Assembly (NCBI RefSeq): GCF_014773245.1
Contig: NZ_JACWMX010000007.1
Location: 124,001-188,000, forward strand
Reading direction: 5' to 3'
DNA from: Mucilaginibacter glaciei
GTDB lineage: Bacteria; Bacteroidota; Bacteroidia; Sphingobacteriales; Sphingobacteriaceae
Length of the DNA stretch: 64,000 nucleotides
The translations under genes were made by a program, and so were the position numbers. Below, in pieces: positions 17,653 to 25,005 of the stretch. A model generated the notes under the pieces. That model was not told the origin of the DNA. It did not search any database and worked only from the letters and a program-made list of their open reading frames with translations. Within the stretch, counting starts at the first letter, position 1; every line of letters starts with the position of its first letter.

Positions 17653-18441
17653 TTACAACGCGCTTATCGCCCTGTCCAAATGCACGTATCCTCCATCGAC
17701 ATAAACTAATTGCCCGGTTGTATGGCTTGATCTGTCGGACAGTAGAAATACTACGGTATTAGCTATTTCTTCTGTAGTGGTCATGCGGTTATCCAGTGGG
17801 ATCTTCGCCTCTATCTCTTTTCGCTTCGCATCAGGATCTGGCAAAGTACTTATCCATGATTCGTATAAGGGTGTCCAGCATTCTGCAACAACAACCGCAT
17901 TTACGCGGATGCCATATTTGAGCAATTCTACCGCCCATTCCCGGGTTAACGCATTACGGGCACCGTTTGATGCCGCATAGCCCGACGTGTTTCCCTGGCC
18001 GGTTTCGGCAGTTTTTGATGTAATATTGACAATGCTGCCCTTTGATATTTTCAAGGCTGGTAAAGAGTAATGCGCTATCAGGTAGTAATGTACCATGCTT
18101 TTATGCAGGGATGCTATAAAGCTGTCGTAATCGCCGCTTTCTAAACCTACGCCATCGTTAACGCCGGCATTATTTACCACGCCGTTAATACGGCCATATT
18201 TATCACTTATCTGCTTTACAGATCTTTCACACGCATTTGGGTCAGTTAACTCTGCAACAACCTGATCGGATTTAAACCCGAGGGCTTTTATCTCGTTAAC
18301 TACTTTCAGGTTATCTGCCTCGCTCCTGCCAATGATCACCGGGATAGCACCCTCGGCAGCTAACGCATGTACAATTCCTTCGCCAATGCCTTTAGCACCA
18401 CCTGTTACTATAAATATCTTATCAGTTAAATTCAAGTTCAT
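17653..18441 (-). CDS. SDR-family dehydrogenase, L-fucose dehydrogenase-like, with YxxxN in place of YxxxK
   Basis: A 262-residue classical-type SDR. The NAD(P) loop TGGAKGIGEGI (13-23) and NNAGV (90-94) are intact, as is Ser142. The catalytic Tyr155 is followed by Ala-Ala-Ser-Asn159 (codon AAC), so the usual Lys is Asn. The sequence around it (NALTREWAVELL) and the closing YVDGGYVHLD resemble the SDRs annotated as L-fucose dehydrogenase. It begins 11 bases after the FucP-type permease gene and is surely co-transcribed. A role in sugar oxidation following uptake is likely. Fructuronate reduction is an alternative because hexuronate genes lie near; the substrate is not settled. Confidence 0.8.
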   Translation of the reverse strand: MNLNLTDKIFIVTGGAKGIGEGIVHALAAEGAIPVIIGRSEADNLKVVNEIKALGFKSDQVVAELTDPNACERSVKQISDKYGRINGVVNNAGVNDGVGLESGDYDSFIASLHKSMVHYYLIAHYSLPALKISKGSIVNITSKTAETGQGNTSGYAASNGARNALTREWAVELLKYGIRVNAVVVAECWTPLYESWISTLPDPDAKRKEIEAKIPLDNRMTTTEEIANTVVFLLSDRSSHTTGQLVYVDGGYVHLDRAISAL

Positions 18442-18452
18442 TTTTATTCTGA

Positions 18453-19733
18453 TTAATGGCCGGCTACAATAGCCACCTTCTTCACCTTCAAATTATTTAC
18501 AGCGAACCATAAGATCATGATAAAACTAACGCCCGGCACCAGGTAAGACAGCTGGATGTTAGATGCGTCAGATATTCGCCCCATAACCGGCGGCATAATC
18601 GCACCGCCAACTATACCCATGATAACCAGCGACGAGCCCAGTTTGGTTTTGGCACCCAAATCGCGGATGCTTAACGAGAATATCGTCGGGAACATAATAG
18701 ACATAAAGAACCAAACCGCCATCAGCGTGTAAACCGCCGCCATGCCGCTTAAATTAACAGCCAATATGATCAGAAATATATTTATAATACTGTAGGTAAC
18801 CAGCAATTTTACAGGGCTAAAATACTTCATCAAAAAGGTGCCGATAAACCTGCCCGCCATAAAGCCTGCAAAAGCCAGTGGCAGGTAAATTTGCGAAGCA
18901 TCCTTTTCAGAGATCTGCGCAACCTTCTCGCTAAAGCGGATGAAAAAGCTGGTTACGCAGGCCTGCCCGCCCACATAAAAGAATATAGCCAACACGCCCG
19001 ACATGAGCTTCCTATCCTTTAATAACTCCGCAATGCGCGATCCTAACGAACGTTTTTCGTCCAAAACTTCGTCGCTGCTTTCTTCCTTGACAACCGGGAA
19101 GGTAGTGCGCCAAACCATTATGGTAACCAAAAACACTACGATACTGATCACAAGAAAAGGAACCTGAACGGATGATGCCTCTTTATTTAAATATTCATTA
19201 AGTTGCGCTGCCGACATGCCTTTTTCTTCGGCGGCTGTAAGCGTTTTACCCGACAGGATAAAGGTACCACCCATTAGGGGTGCTACGGTAGCCGCCAGTC
19301 CGTTAAACGATTGCGAGAAGTTAATCCGTTGGGTTGCGCCTTTGGGGTCGCCAATTAAGGTTATCAACGGATTAGCGGCAGTTTCTAAAAACGCCATGCC
19401 CGAGAATACTACAAATAAGGCCGACAGGAAGAAAGCGTAATTACGAACCGCAGCAGCCGGGTAGAACAATAATGCACCCACCGAGAATAGCAGCAGGCCA
19501 ATAATAATACCACCTTTGTACCCGTATTTTTTCATGAATTGCGCCGCAGGGATTGGTAGCAGGAAGTAGGCGATATAAGATGCAGAGTCGATCAACGATG
19601 ACTGAAAATCTGATAACTGGCAGGCTTTTTTGAGGTGCGGGATCAGGATCGGGTTCAAATTCAATGCGAAACCCCAGATAAAGAACAGCGAGGTTATAAG
19701 TGCAACCGCTGTGAACGTGTTATTTTTAGACAT
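18453..19733 (-). CDS. FucP-family sugar:H+ symporter (MFS)
   Basis: A 426-residue inner-membrane major facilitator with 12 predicted helices. FucP hallmarks are LFFIWGFALNLNPILIPHLKKA at the N-terminus, the MAFLETAANPLITLIGDP block and RINFSQSFNGLAATVAP near residue 140. In E. coli FucP imports L-fucose; Bacteroidota have many relatives taking other monosaccharides such as glucose, galactose or N-acetylglucosamine. The neighbouring SDR dehydrogenase argues for L-fucose or a related sugar. Upstream are 381 bases without genes containing three GGTTTACA-type motifs, which are candidate regulator sites. Confidence 0.87.
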   Translation of the reverse strand: MSKNNTFTAVALITSLFFIWGFALNLNPILIPHLKKACQLSDFQSSLIDSASYIAYFLLPIPAAQFMKKYGYKGGIIIGLLLFSVGALLFYPAAAVRNYAFFLSALFVVFSGMAFLETAANPLITLIGDPKGATQRINFSQSFNGLAATVAPLMGGTFILSGKTLTAAEEKGMSAAQLNEYLNKEASSVQVPFLVISIVVFLVTIMVWRTTFPVVKEESSDEVLDEKRSLGSRIAELLKDRKLMSGVLAIFFYVGGQACVTSFFIRFSEKVAQISEKDASQIYLPLAFAGFMAGRFIGTFLMKYFSPVKLLVTYSIINIFLIILAVNLSGMAAVYTLMAVWFFMSIMFPTIFSLSIRDLGAKTKLGSSLVIMGIVGGAIMPPVMGRISDASNIQLSYLVPGVSFIMILWFAVNNLKVKKVAIVAGH

Positions 19734-20114
19734 TAGTTATAAGCATAAATTGGTGCGCTCAATATAGCACTTTAATTTATTTCCAGCCTGTATTTCGGTG
19801 GCATCTTACAGAAAACAAAGTGACTGTCAGTTAAGTAGCGAATGTCATTGAAGCCATTTTGCCGAAATTGGGTTTACAAAGGTTTACATATTTCAATAAA
19901 TTAAATTCATATATATTTGATAATCAATAAATTATAAAATACATGGGTTTACATAAAAAAGAGCATTGATTTTAGGAAAAGCAGGCTGTGTGAGTTGGAT
20001 AGTTACAAGCTGAGTAACAATTTAATCTCCGTGAGGCCGCCGTGTTGGCGCATTGAGCCTCATTCCTTAAAAGCAATATGGTTTTGGTATCTTTGCACTC
20101 TTTATATTTTTTAA
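19734..20114. promoter_or_regulatory. Intergenic control region of the fucP-like operon and the DEAD-box gene
   Basis: 381 bases between divergent genes. It holds the 20-bp double GGTTTACA repeat (19869-19888), a third GGGTTTACA at 19945-19953, an A/T-rich stretch (19890-19940) and TATCTTTG at 20088-20095, a good -7 box for the DEAD-box gene. I see no small gene in it. Confidence 0.5.
19869..19888 (+). repeat. 20-bp repeat with doubled GGTTTACA, copy 2
   Basis: TGGGTTTACAAAGGTTTACA, identical to the minus strand of 13435-13454. Here it lies upstream of the FucP-type operon and may be a regulator site; a half copy follows at 19944-19953. Confidence 0.6.
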
Positions 20115-21431
20115 ATGGTGTGGGCAGAAAAGTTTAAGCTTAAAAAGCTATTAGTAAGATCGGTTGTTGAAGCAGGGTTTGATACCCCGAAAGAGATCCA
20201 GTTAAAAACGCTGGGCCGCATTACCGGCGGTCAGGATGTGATCGGCATCGGCCCTGAAGGGTGTGGCAAAACAACCACCTACGTGATCAGCACGATCAAC
20301 CGTTTTAACCACGATGCCGAAGGTGTACCGCGCGTGCTGATCTTAGCACCCGACCAGGAAAAGATCTTTGAAATTGTAGCCCAGTTTGACAGGCTGAACC
20401 AAAATAAATCACTGACCATTGTTACGCTGCATGCCGGTACAGGTACCGAGCAGCAGATGGACGAACTGGCCGATGGTGCCGACATCGTAATTGCAACGCC
20501 CGACCGTGCACGTGCTATTTACCTGAAGTTAGGCTTGAACCTGAACAAGGTTGAATTATTGGTTGTAGACGATGCCCACCAGATAGTAAAGAAAGGTTTA
20601 CAGTTACCTGTAGTGGAACTAGCCAACAGCATCGGTAGGGCGCAACATCTGGTGTTTAGCGAGGTTTTGCATGACAAGCTGGAGAAAATGATCGCCCCTT
20701 TCATGCATTTGCCTACTACAATTGAAGTAGAAGAACTACCTGACCAGCAAGTACCTATGCATCCGCAGATGTTATACCATGTGCCTAACTTTGGCACCAA
20801 GGTTAACTTGCTGAACTTGTTCATGTACGATGAGGAACTGTTCACCAAAACGGTAGTTTTTGCCAACACCCGCCAAACTGCCGAGACCGTTTACAAGAGC
20901 CTGCAAAACCGCATCCATAACGCGGTAGCTATATTAAACCCTACCGATTTTGAGTATAACCTGGTAAAGGATATCAGCGAGTTTAAAGCGGACGACAGTC
21001 TGCGCGTACTGATCGTAGCGAACGAAAACACCGAAAGCATCGACCTGCAAAATATCCCTTTCATTATCCATTTGGATTTGCCTGCGGATAAAGCTGTTTA
21101 TATCGAGCATGTAAGCAACCACGATGTTAATGCGGAAGATGAAACGCTTGCGTTGACCTTTGTGACCGACCTGGAACTGGACCAGGTAGTTAAAATTGAA
21201 TATACTACCGGCCAAAAAATGCAGCGCGCCGAATTACCTGAAGAATTGGTAATTGAAAAGGAACGCAAGCAAAAGGAAGCCGAAAAAGAAGCGGCCAAAA
21301 AACCTGTTAAAGCCGACCCTAACAAATACGAGCCGGGTGCAGCATTCCACGAAAAGAAGCCTGAAAATTCAAAGACTTATAATTTTAGCTCGGGATATAA
21401 AGCGAAATTGAATAATAAAAAGAAACATTAA
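20115..21431 (+). CDS. Degenerate DEAD-box helicase-like ATPase
   Basis: A 438-residue two-RecA-domain protein with DEAD-box architecture but altered motifs. Kept: a Q-motif-like TPKEIQLKTL, Walker A GPEGCGKTTT (46-55) and an IATPDRA segment. Changed: motif II is DDAH (152-155); SAT is replaced by FSEV (181-184); the motif V region is VANENTESIDL without the usual Arg-Gly; motif VI (HRIGRxGR) is replaced by EHVSNHDVN (330-338), so both arginine fingers are gone. The C-terminus is a Lys/Glu-rich tail (about 375-438) typical of RNA-binding extensions. It may bind RNA and ATP but probably not unwind normally. A -7 box lies 20 bases upstream and a terminator follows. Confidence 0.8.
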   Translation: MVWAEKFKLKKLLVRSVVEAGFDTPKEIQLKTLGRITGGQDVIGIGPEGCGKTTTYVISTINRFNHDAEGVPRVLILAPDQEKIFEIVAQFDRLNQNKSLTIVTLHAGTGTEQQMDELADGADIVIATPDRARAIYLKLGLNLNKVELLVVDDAHQIVKKGLQLPVVELANSIGRAQHLVFSEVLHDKLEKMIAPFMHLPTTIEVEELPDQQVPMHPQMLYHVPNFGTKVNLLNLFMYDEELFTKTVVFANTRQTAETVYKSLQNRIHNAVAILNPTDFEYNLVKDISEFKADDSLRVLIVANENTESIDLQNIPFIIHLDLPADKAVYIEHVSNHDVNAEDETLALTFVTDLELDQVVKIEYTTGQKMQRAELPEELVIEKERKQKEAEKEAAKKPVKADPNKYEPGAAFHEKKPENSKTYNFSSGYKAKLNNKKKH

Positions 21432-21440
21432 GAAATTTAT

Positions 21441-21467
21441 AGAGCCACAAGACATTGTGGCTCTTTT
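21441..21467 (+). terminator. Rho-independent terminator behind the DEAD-box gene
   Basis: AGAGCCACAA (21441-21450), loop GACA, TTGTGGCTCT (21455-21464), then a T run. The stem is perfect. It may also serve the convergent small gene. Confidence 0.85.
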
Positions 21468-21468
21468 G

Positions 21469-21699
21469 TTACGCAGGCATATCCTTACTGCACTCGATAT
21501 ACAGATCCTCTACCTTTTTACGGGCCCAGGGCGTTTTACGCAGGAATTTAAGACTGGAGTTAACGCTAGGGTTATCCAAAAAGCAATTGATCCGGATGCG
21601 GTAACCCATTTCGCCCCAGCCCAAATGCGCAACAAGGGCGTTCAGGATAGCTTCTAAAGTTTTACCGTGTAACGGATCTTTTGATTTGGGTTGCTCCAT
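21469..21699 (-). CDS. VF530-family (DUF2132) small protein
   Basis: A 76-residue protein matching the VF530 family: [21 protein letters not shown], then the [29 protein letters not shown] core. The family was described from a Vibrio structure with a DNA-binding-like helical fold, but its biological role is unclear. ATG 21699 (MEQPKSKDP) is chosen over an upstream in-frame start that adds 16 atypical residues. It lies between the DEAD-box gene (convergent) and the eda gene (same strand, 74 bases downstream of eda's end). Confidence 0.85.
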
Positions 21700-21773
21700 A
21701 GGGCGAAAATACGATTTTAATTGAGGCTTTATGAAACGGATAAGCAAGGGGGCAATGCCATGCCAAGTTGTTG

Positions 21774-22433
21774 CTATTTACTCAACTGTACCAATTCCAA
21801 AGCCTTAACCGTATCGTTATATAACTGATCGTATAGCCTGTTATCCAGCACGTTCTTGCTAATGAGCTTGCTGCCCATGCCTACCGCACAAACCCCGGAA
21901 CGGAACCATTCGGAGATATTGCCTACCTCTATCTCTACCCCTCCCGTCGGCATAAATAACTGCCCCTGGAATAGCTCGCGGATAGATGATATAAAGGCCG
22001 GGCCCAGAATATTAGCCGGGAAGATCTTGATCAGGGCGGCCTTCTGGCTTTGCGCTAAATTAATTTCGGTAGGTGTCATACAACCGGGTATGTAAAGCAT
22101 CTTATAGCGCTCGGCAGCGCGGGCTACACCGGCATCGATAATCGGCGACACAATAAAATCGGCACCTGCATTAATAAATCGTTCTGCCTCTCCTTCAGTC
22201 TTAATCGTGCCTATCCCCAAGTGCAGATCGGGGATTTCCTTTTTGACGATCTTGCTGATAAACTCAAAGTTGCCCAAGGCTTCCTTACCACGGTTGGTAT
22301 ATTCCAGCACCCTAACCCCTGCTTTATAAAGCGTACGGATCACTTCTAAACTTACATCGGCATCTTCGTAAAAAAACAAGGGCAGCATCCCCTGTGTTAA
22401 AATGCTGTCTAAAACGGTTTCTTTACTCTTCAT
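21774..22433 (-). CDS. eda: 2-dehydro-3-deoxyphosphogluconate (KDPG) aldolase
   Basis: A 219-residue class I aldolase that cleaves KDPG to pyruvate and glyceraldehyde 3-phosphate. Visible landmarks are VLEYTNRG with the catalytic Glu, LGIGTIKT, the [10 protein letters not shown] strand and the Schiff-base Lys in [13 protein letters not shown], followed by the phosphate-binding MPTGGVE. It is the last gene of a uxaC-kdgK-eda operon; its ATG overlaps the end of kdgK by 4 bases (22430-22433), indicating translational coupling. The same enzyme can act on 4-hydroxy-2-oxoglutarate. Confidence 0.93.
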
Positions 22434-23470
22434 GCTTTTATGGTGTTTGTGATTTGCTGGGCAGTTTGTGTGGTGGCATCGCTGGCAATGAACAACTTCT
22501 GGAAAGCTGCAGCAGTTGCATATTCTAACGTTTCCTGCGGGCCCAGGTTATTGTAAAAGCCGTAGATCAGCCCGGCCATAAAACAATCGCCGGTGCCTAC
22601 TTTGGCAACAAATTCAGTGGCGTGGTATTCTTGCGAATTGTAAAATTCACCTTCATAATACAGCGCGGTGTAGTAGTCGATATCGCCAGTGGCATCAAAC
22701 CTGAAGGTATTGGCAACTGCCTTACATTTTGGATATTCTGCCATGATCCTTTCTGACGATGACAAGGCCTCTTTCAGGTAAATACTCTTTTGGCCGCTCT
22801 CATGTATATCGCCTAATACCTCTATTCCCAGCATCTGTTCGGCGGCCCAAATATTGCCCATAATCACGTCGCAATACTTCACTAACTCTGGCATAACATC
22901 CTTAGGATGTTTACCATACTGCCATAACTTGGAGCGATAATTTAAATCGATTGAAATGGTGATCCCCCTTTCGGAAGCTACTTTTGAAGCCTCCATACAA
23001 ACATCCGCCACCTGCTGATTAATTGCAGGGCAAATCGCACTAAAGTGAAACCAGGTAACACCGTCTAACACCTTATCCCAATCGATCATCCCGGGTTGCA
23101 GATCGGCAAATGCTGAGTTGGCCCGGTCATAGATCAGGGCATCATGCTTCAGGTCTTTCCCCTTGGTAAGGTAGTACAAACCTACCCGGTTACCCTGATA
23201 GTAAACCGGCGTAGTATCGATATTTTTTCGACTGAGGTATTCAACGATCTGTGCAGACATGCCATTCTGCGGCAGGGCTGTAAAATATTTAGAAGGCACA
23301 TCCCACAAGGCCAAAGCCGTAGCCACATTCAATTCGGCACCGCCAATAAAAAACGGCAGCACGTTATCATTTAACCATTCGCCACCGGCATCGGGCACGA
23401 TGCGCAACAGCAGTTCACCAAATGACAGCACGGCCCCTTCTTTATAGTTTTGTTGAAGTAACCCGCTCAT
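22430..23470 (-). CDS. kdgK: 2-dehydro-3-deoxygluconokinase (PfkB family)
   Basis: A 346-residue PfkB-type kinase expected to phosphorylate KDG to KDPG. It has LSFGELLLRIVPD and the GGAELNVATALALWD sugar-binding segment at the N-terminus, and AKVGTGDCFMAGLIYGFYN near residue 290 with the catalytic Asp in GTGD. Gene order decides the substrate: the isomerase uxaC ends at the base before its start, and the KDPG aldolase overlaps its end. The product is cytoplasmic. Its ATG (23468-23470) directly abuts the uxaC stop codon. Confidence 0.92.
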   Translation of the reverse strand: MSGLLQQNYKEGAVLSFGELLLRIVPDAGGEWLNDNVLPFFIGGAELNVATALALWDVPSKYFTALPQNGMSAQIVEYLSRKNIDTTPVYYQGNRVGLYYLTKGKDLKHDALIYDRANSAFADLQPGMIDWDKVLDGVTWFHFSAICPAINQQVADVCMEASKVASERGITISIDLNYRSKLWQYGKHPKDVMPELVKYCDVIMGNIWAAEQMLGIEVLGDIHESGQKSIYLKEALSSSERIMAEYPKCKAVANTFRFDATGDIDYYTALYYEGEFYNSQEYHATEFVAKVGTGDCFMAGLIYGFYNNLGPQETLEYATAAAFQKLFIASDATTQTAQQITNTIKA

Positions 23471-24880
23471 TTATTTCTTATCAAAATCAAAGTAGTTTTT
23501 GGCATTGTAATAGCAAATATCCTGCACTATCTTGCCCGTCCATTGCAAGTCGTTGGGCAGTTCGCCATTCTCAATATCATCACCTAATAAATTGCACAAG
23601 ATCCGGCGGAAATATTCATGCCGCGGAAAGGAAAGGAAACTGCGCGAATCTGTCAGCATCCCTACCAGCCTGCTCAAAAGCCCCATGTTAGATAGCGCGT
23701 TTAATTGCTTGATCATCCCGTCCTTCTGATCCAAAAACCACCAGGCCGAACCAAACTGGATCTTGCCCGCTATCGAGCCGTCATTAAAGTTGCCGGCCAT
23801 GGTAGCTATCATTTCGTTATCTGCCGGGTTAATGTTGTAGATGATGGTTTTGGTGAGCCTGTCCTCACTGTCCAGTTTATCTAAAAAGCGGGCAAGGTTG
23901 CGGCTTTGTAAAAAGTCGCCGATGGAATCGCGGCCTGTATCAGGCCCCAAAAGCCTTAAGCCGCGTGAGCTGTTGTTGCGGATGGCCCCAATATGGAATT
24001 GCTGTACCCAGCCCTTTTCATGATCCCAAACGGCGAAGTTATACAGCATGGCCGATTTGAATTTTCCGCGCTCCACCGGGCTTAAAACCTGATCGGTCCG
24101 TATTTTGGCAAAGATTGCTACGATCTCATTGTCGGTATAATCATCGGCATACATGCGTTCCAATCCGTGGTCGGATACGCAGCAGCCATTTGCGGCAAAG
24201 TAGTGATGGCGTTTCTTCAGTGCATGCAGATAGCTTTCAAAGCTGTTTACTACCGTATCAGCCACCACCTCTAATTGGGCAATATATGTATTCATTGCCT
24301 TGGTATCGTCGCAATACATGGCCTTATCCGGCCTGAACGCGGGCAATACCTTTAAATCAAACCCGTCTTCTTTTATCTTTTGGTGGTGCTCTAGGCTATC
24401 CAGCGGGTCGTCAGTCGTACAGATCACCTCCACGTTACGCCCGGTAATAAGTTTGCGCACACTGTAGTCGCGGCTTTGCAGCTTGGCGGTGCAATCGTTG
24501 TAAATATAATCAGCTGTACCCGGCATCAGTCGCGAGTCGATCCCGAAGTAACGGCGCAGCTCTAAATGTGTCCAGTGGTATAGCGGGTTGCGCAGTGTGT
24601 AGGGTACGGTTGCCGCCCATTGCTCAAATTTCTCTTTGTCACTCTTATTGCCGGTGATGTAACTTTCATCTACCCCATTGGCCCGCATGGCCCGCCATTT
24701 ATAATGATCGCCGTTAAGCCAAACCGATGTGATATTTTCAAAATTGATATCATTGGCTATCTGGTCGGGCGGTAAATGGCAGTGGTAATCGATAATGGGC
24801 ATATCGGCTGCAAACTCATGATAGAGGCGTTTAGCAGTTTCTGTTTGCAGCAAAAAATCCTGGTCAAGGAAGTTTTTCAT
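23471..24880 (-). CDS. uxaC: Glucuronate (uronate) isomerase
   Basis: A 469-residue enzyme converting D-glucuronate to D-fructuronate (and galacturonate to tagaturonate). Typical blocks are IDYHCHLPPDQIANDI near the N-terminus (metal-binding His pair), WNGDHYKWRAMRANGV-like text at about 54-69, the TTDDPLDSLEHH segment and FGSAWWFLDQKDGM plus SDSRSFLSFPRHEYFRRILC-like text near the C-terminus. ATG 24880 (MKNFLDQDFLLQ) is chosen because the longer frame adds 19 residues not seen in the family. It is the first gene of uxaC-kdgK-eda. uxuA and uxuB are absent from the window. Confidence 0.94.
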   Translation of the reverse strand: MKNFLDQDFLLQTETAKRLYHEFAADMPIIDYHCHLPPDQIANDINFENITSVWLNGDHYKWRAMRANGVDESYITGNKSDKEKFEQWAATVPYTLRNPLYHWTHLELRRYFGIDSRLMPGTADYIYNDCTAKLQSRDYSVRKLITGRNVEVICTTDDPLDSLEHHQKIKEDGFDLKVLPAFRPDKAMYCDDTKAMNTYIAQLEVVADTVVNSFESYLHALKKRHHYFAANGCCVSDHGLERMYADDYTDNEIVAIFAKIRTDQVLSPVERGKFKSAMLYNFAVWDHEKGWVQQFHIGAIRNNSSRGLRLLGPDTGRDSIGDFLQSRNLARFLDKLDSEDRLTKTIIYNINPADNEMIATMAGNFNDGSIAGKIQFGSAWWFLDQKDGMIKQLNALSNMGLLSRLVGMLTDSRSFLSFPRHEYFRRILCNLLGDDIENGELPNDLQWTGKIVQDICYYNAKNYFDFDKK

Positions 24881-25005
24881 AACGGGTTTATAATTTGGCA
24901 AGGAAACTGTAATTATAGGATTAATCTGCCAAAGCACCCAAAACTATTGTCGAAATCGTTGTAGTGGATTTGTACAAAATACACAGCGTAGAAGTATGAG
25001 TAAAC

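Follow-up and report, generated by a model that had tools for sequence, protein, structure and literature searches.

A predicted DEAD-box pseudohelicase gene lies within the window, by which we mean the whole 64,000-nucleotide stretch that was analysed, and its features are collected in Table 1. The sequence-only reading that preceded this analysis described an intact frame, and the open reading frame is indeed unbroken over exactly the listed span and strand. Pfam places a DEAD domain at residues 27–182 of the product (90.1 bits, gathering score 26) and a Helicase_C domain at residues 237–330 (33.5 bits, gathering score 23.5). The best NCBIfam match is CshA (149 bits) and the best PDB sequence match is CshA 5ivl; the protein scores 149.2 bits against the 646-bit cut-off of the CshA equivalog NF053631, and is thus not a member of it. 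A search of PHROGs returned one weak match (26.5 bits), to a branch-migration helicase family. AlphaFold2 gives a confident model with two RecA lobes (pLDDT 83.9, pTM 0.76), for which Hera and CshA are the top Foldseek matches. Judged by fold and descent (Pfam scores, AlphaFold2 and Foldseek), the product is a DEAD-box RNA helicase. The lobes are open in the model, an orientation that we leave uninterpreted because the control model, of an intact paralogue, is shallow and poor (24 rows, pLDDT 68.4).

Table 1. Features of the gene and its product; residue counts refer to 112 distinct orthologous sequences
Feature	Position	Strand	Remarks
Bacteroidota-type -7 box TATCTTTG (consensus TAnnTTTG)	20088..20095	+	starts 27 bp upstream of ATG
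Predicted DEAD-box pseudohelicase gene	20115..21431	+	438 aa, ATG start, stop included in coordinates
Q motif (G21...Q29), Gln retained	20175..20201	+	G21 and Q29 in 112/112
Motif I / Walker A GPEGCGKT, intact	20250..20273	+	G51 and K52 in 112/112; T53 is T in 109, S in 3
Motif Ia site, PTREL to PDQEK	20349..20363	+	an RNA-contact motif
Motif Ib, TPGR to TPDR, Arg retained	20496..20507	+	R131 in 111/112, D130 in 106/112
Motif II, DEAD to DDAH; Mg-site Asp retained, catalytic Glu gone	20568..20579	+	D152 in 112/112
Motif III, SAT to SEV	20658..20666	+	V184 in 111/112, E183 in 92/112
Lobe-2 QxxR RNA-contact site, residues 280–283, lost	20952..20963	+	intact paralogues keep Q280 and R283; both are free in this clade
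Motif V site (TDxxxRGxD), lost	21018..21047	+	reads ANENTESID; Arg absent
Motif VI site (HRxGRxGR)	21105..21131	+	both arginine fingers lost; window copy reads EHVSNHD
C-terminal tail GAAFHEKK...KTYNFSSGYKAKLNNKKKH	21336..21428	+	AFHEKK core common to intact paralogues

The good -7 box noticed in the same reading is present and conserved, with TAnnTTTG occurring no more than 90 bp upstream of the gene in 80 of 111 distinct orthologue upstream regions, versus 5% of random 96-mers. Directly downstream, in convergent orientation, is a gene of the VF530 DNA-binding family (PF09905, 109.8 bits; 21469–21747, minus strand). The arrangement recurs in 63 of 100 orthologue loci, 11 of them with a 4-bp overlap. 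Upstream, on the same strand, a truA gene (tRNA pseudouridine synthase-like by sequence) is found in 37 of the 100 loci, including L072, often at a distance of 65–120 bp; in the window an MFS transporter gene, not truA, occupies this place. Among 20 loci from other genera of Sphingobacteriaceae, truA occurs in none and convergent VF530 in one. A functional link through an operon with truA or VF530 was considered and dropped, and these neighbours are not counted as evidence, because they are all but absent from those 20 loci and the gene carries its own conserved -7 box. Comparison of the orthologue loci revealed no neighbour that is conserved across genera and points to a partner. Both the pseudohelicase gene and the VF530 gene beside it fall within an apparent uronate/KDG catabolic cluster (17653–24937), in which an SDR, the MFS transporter and a KDPG aldolase are assigned by Pfam, and a sugar kinase and a uronate isomerase from sequence only.

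Motifs kept and lost

The protein retains some hallmarks of an active DEAD-box enzyme and lacks others. The Q-motif glutamine and a Walker A GxGKT are present, and Q29, G51, K52, A154 and D152 are invariant among the 112 orthologues. Motif II has no catalytic glutamate: position 153 is D in 108 orthologues, N in three and Q in one, and never E. The last letter of DEAD, H in the window copy, varies among D (48), E (39), Q (13), H (10) and A (2). Neither the HRxGRxGR of motif VI nor the TDxxxRGxD of motif V is found in the product, and all 112 orthologues lack motif V together with the two arginine fingers. The first arginine of the motif VI HR remains in 87 of 112; in the window copy it is a histidine.

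The sequence-only reading had reported that Walker A is intact, that DEAD has become DDAH and SAT FSEV, that the motif V arginine is gone and that HRIGRxGR is replaced by EHVSNHD with loss of the two arginine fingers. Each of these observations is borne out, SEV standing at the motif III position and FSEV being its context. Further losses came to light at motif Ia, the lobe-2 QxxR site, the terminal D of DEAD, and the GG pair, which is lost in the window protein and its orthologues alike.

When 114 clade members were set position by position against 29 intact paralogues, 36 positions proved to be conserved on both sides, including Q29, G49, G51, K52, T53, D152 and the C-terminal tail. Conservation has been lost in the clade at most catalytic and RNA-contact positions, among them motif V, motif VI, GG, QxxR and the terminal Asp of DEAD. 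No lobe-2 arginine appears among the positions newly conserved in the clade in this comparison, and the family as a whole does not conserve the adenine-stacking aromatic residue that precedes the Q motif.

In the tail, A410, F411, H412, K414 and K415 are at least 95% conserved both in the pseudohelicase clade and in intact paralogues, and the AFHEKK core is common to the clade and both intact Bacteroidota clades. A C-terminal motif of the GAFHEKK type is also seen in intact DEAD-box proteins from several families of Bacteroidia (L003, L039–L045, L050–L058). To our knowledge, no function or partner of the AFHEKK/GAFHEKK tail has been described. The tail is not needed universally, because some members in the genus coded g41 are without it. 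Several g41 matches stop near residue 390–397, L157 (from G147) has no tail, and matches from G112, G132, G159, G174 and G198 have an in-frame stop.

Distribution, descent and selection

The 112 distinct orthologous sequences come from Sphingobacteriaceae, mostly Mucilaginibacter. An orthologue is present in 33 of 36 same-genus relatives (53–93% identity) and absent from three. Within Sphingobacteriaceae, a clear gap in score separates clade members (at least 449 bits) from intact paralogues (at most 309 bits), and the clade occurs in 14 of the 25 genus codes sampled; of 151 genomes taken from the order, 131 carry a member. The only occurrences found outside this family are in genus g101 of family f34, with two genomes among the 295 of a class sample and three among 46 genomes from its order; motif II reads DGAD in these relatives, and the other losses are the same. 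A phylum sample of 395, searched at a stricter threshold, yielded no clade member outside Sphingobacteriaceae. The intact paralogue is present without the pseudohelicase in some Mucilaginibacter genomes and in several related genera.

The clade is monophyletic with full support (100/100), also after addition of the f34 members, and its stem is long, at 1.28 changes per column. The tree places it nearest to a CshA-like intact paralogue (96/88, 97/96), which in the window genome is encoded on the same contig, ~25 kb upstream, with DEAD and HRIGRTGR intact. The sister could instead be another intact clade of Bacteroidota (the L041–L044 type), whose tail is more alike, a grouping that the AU test does not reject (p-AU 0.15 and 0.50). 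One intact DEAD-box paralogue from each of these two clades is present in G047 (family f12), where the pair are adjacent and divergently oriented (L039, 6551–9352).

Pairwise dN/dS among orthologues is 0.03–0.14, and the intact paralogue in the same genomes gives similar values. Regional values of dN/dS are 0.032 (lobe 1), 0.060 (lobe 2) and 0.037 (tail), with the minimum around Walker A (residues 40–56, pooled 0.016). The sequence-only reading had held that the gene is not decaying randomly, and had named orthologues that keep HRxGRxGR, or a dN/dS near 1, as findings that would speak against this. No orthologue examined retains HRxGRxGR, the losses are shared by all 112 sequences, and dN/dS far below 1 gives no sign of relaxed selection, so the claim stands. 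The protein is thus a probable pseudohelicase, with the kept fold, the lost catalytic motifs and the retention under selection that mark this class.

Candidate function and rival readings

We consider it highly probable, from the conserved losses and the low dN/dS, that the gene encodes a conserved, selected protein that lacks normal DEAD-box catalysis. Structural work assigns a central part in closing on RNA to motif VI, whose second and third arginines contact the ATP phosphates, and to a salt bridge between the motif V arginine and the terminal Asp of DEAD, the step that frees the RNA site (PMC2948006). Since the motif V arginine and both of these arginines are missing and the terminal Asp is not required, hydrolysis of ATP by the pseudohelicase appears very unlikely and canonical closure on RNA unlikely. 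Binding of ATP by lobe 1 is plausible, because the lobe-1 pocket residues are invariant. The losses are maintained across much of the family, which argues that the product is probably a non-motor scaffold or regulator, and not that of a broken gene.

The reading that we narrowly favour combines a selected pseudohelicase, an ATP ligand in lobe 1 and a scaffold or regulator docked through the tail. ATP/Mg would be held in lobe 1, unhydrolysed, as a ligand with a structural or signalling role, and the two lobes would not close on RNA in the canonical way. The AFHEKK tail would dock the protein on a partner of the intact helicase (an RNP, the ribosome or an RNA-decay factor), where it would either serve as a scaffold that does not cycle or regulate the intact CshA-like helicase. 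A nucleotide-bound or nucleotide-stabilised scaffold or regulator would fit the retention of the lobe-1 pocket together with the tail. We infer the step from tail to partner. C-terminal extensions of bacterial DEAD-box proteins serve as docking and RNA-binding elements, for example RhlB with RraA (PMC3814787). Counting against the favoured reading are the unconserved adenine-stacking aromatic residue, the lack of a neighbour conserved across genera that would point to a partner, and the tailless g41 members. Taken on its own, a scaffold or regulator mechanism acting via the shared tail is proposed tentatively, at somewhat less than an even chance.

The tail held in common with an intact paralogue encoded in the same genome, 25 kb away, could also suggest a dominant-negative decoy that binds the partner or RNA of the CshA-like protein and lowers its activity. 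According to the title of a paper on E. coli DbpA, mutating an arginine finger produces a dominant slow-growth phenotype. However, the genomes noted above that carry the intact paralogue without the pseudohelicase count against a decoy, which we regard as unlikely. The sequence-only reading had proposed an ATP-binding RNA clamp or a regulator, of which the regulator may still apply. An ATP-dependent RNA clamp in the sense of eIF4A-III would close on RNA with ATP and stay locked for want of hydrolysis. The invariant Walker A and Mg-site Asp are compatible with this, and the replacement of the catalytic glutamate by D, N or Q in the 112 sequences, and by G in f34, resembles trap mutations. Yet the residues of the closed state have been lost (the motif V arginine that pairs with the terminal Asp of DEAD, and the motif VI arginines; roles as in PMC2948006), and a canonical clamp is disfavoured because the RNA contacts at GG, QxxR and motif Ia have gone too, so that we judge it improbable. 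A still-active NTPase that uses other catalytic residues could account for the invariance of Walker A and the Mg-site Asp and for an aspartate at the catalytic position in 108 of 112 orthologues, but N, Q and G also occur at that position, motif III has gone along with the two arginine fingers, and no lobe-2 arginine is newly conserved in the clade, leaving little probability to this idea. Simple decay, to which the lost catalytic motifs and the few g41 matches with an in-frame stop or no tail might point, is rejected with near certainty, as frames are open in nearly all orthologues, the motif losses are ancient and conserved, the promoter is conserved and dN/dS is 0.03–0.14.

Relation to other helicases and pseudohelicases

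With helicases of the CshA/DbpA/SrmB type the window protein has in common the two RecA lobes, the Q motif, Walker A, the Mg-site Asp, TPxR and motif IV, whereas the catalytic Glu, SAT, motif V and motif VI are missing; the AFHEKK tail is common to it and the intact Bacteroidota CshA-like paralogue. Utp25/Def, a pseudohelicase of the yeast SSU processome, is likewise a conserved protein of DEAD-box fold with lost motifs, but is eukaryotic and essential for ribosome assembly (PMC9539457). It has no DEAD sequence, keeps motif Ia and retains Q, IV, V and VI in part (PMC9539457), whereas the window protein keeps Walker A, Q and the Mg-site Asp. We assume that the two arose independently. The PriA pseudohelicase of Deinococcus radiodurans is a bacterial case in which motifs are unconserved in one lineage and the protein is retained for binding, but it is a DNA replication-restart protein and the orthologue of an active enzyme, not a paralogue beside one (PMC4504706). 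Assays found neither ATP hydrolysis nor unwinding by that protein (PMC4504706). We found no description of the window family in the open-access literature searched. Nothing relevant came from searches on Mucilaginibacter with DEAD-box proteins or on bacterial DEAD-box proteins lacking activity, and a full-text search for "pseudohelicase" returned three papers, none on a bacterial DEAD-box protein.

Pseudohelicases are seldom documented, and the window family provides a widespread bacterial DEAD-box case. It appears to be a genuine pseudohelicase family under selection, in which the P-loop is invariant and a live paralogue exists. A dead paralogue of this kind may have kept ATP binding alone as a switch or structural ligand, and, through the tail that both have, may serve as a regulator of its live sister helicase or as a scaffold for that helicase's action on a shared RNP partner, a proposal that we make with considerable reserve. 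Given the invariant pocket, the live paralogue and the natural pattern of presence and absence across genera, the family would allow a test of whether ATP binding without hydrolysis suffices for a selected function.
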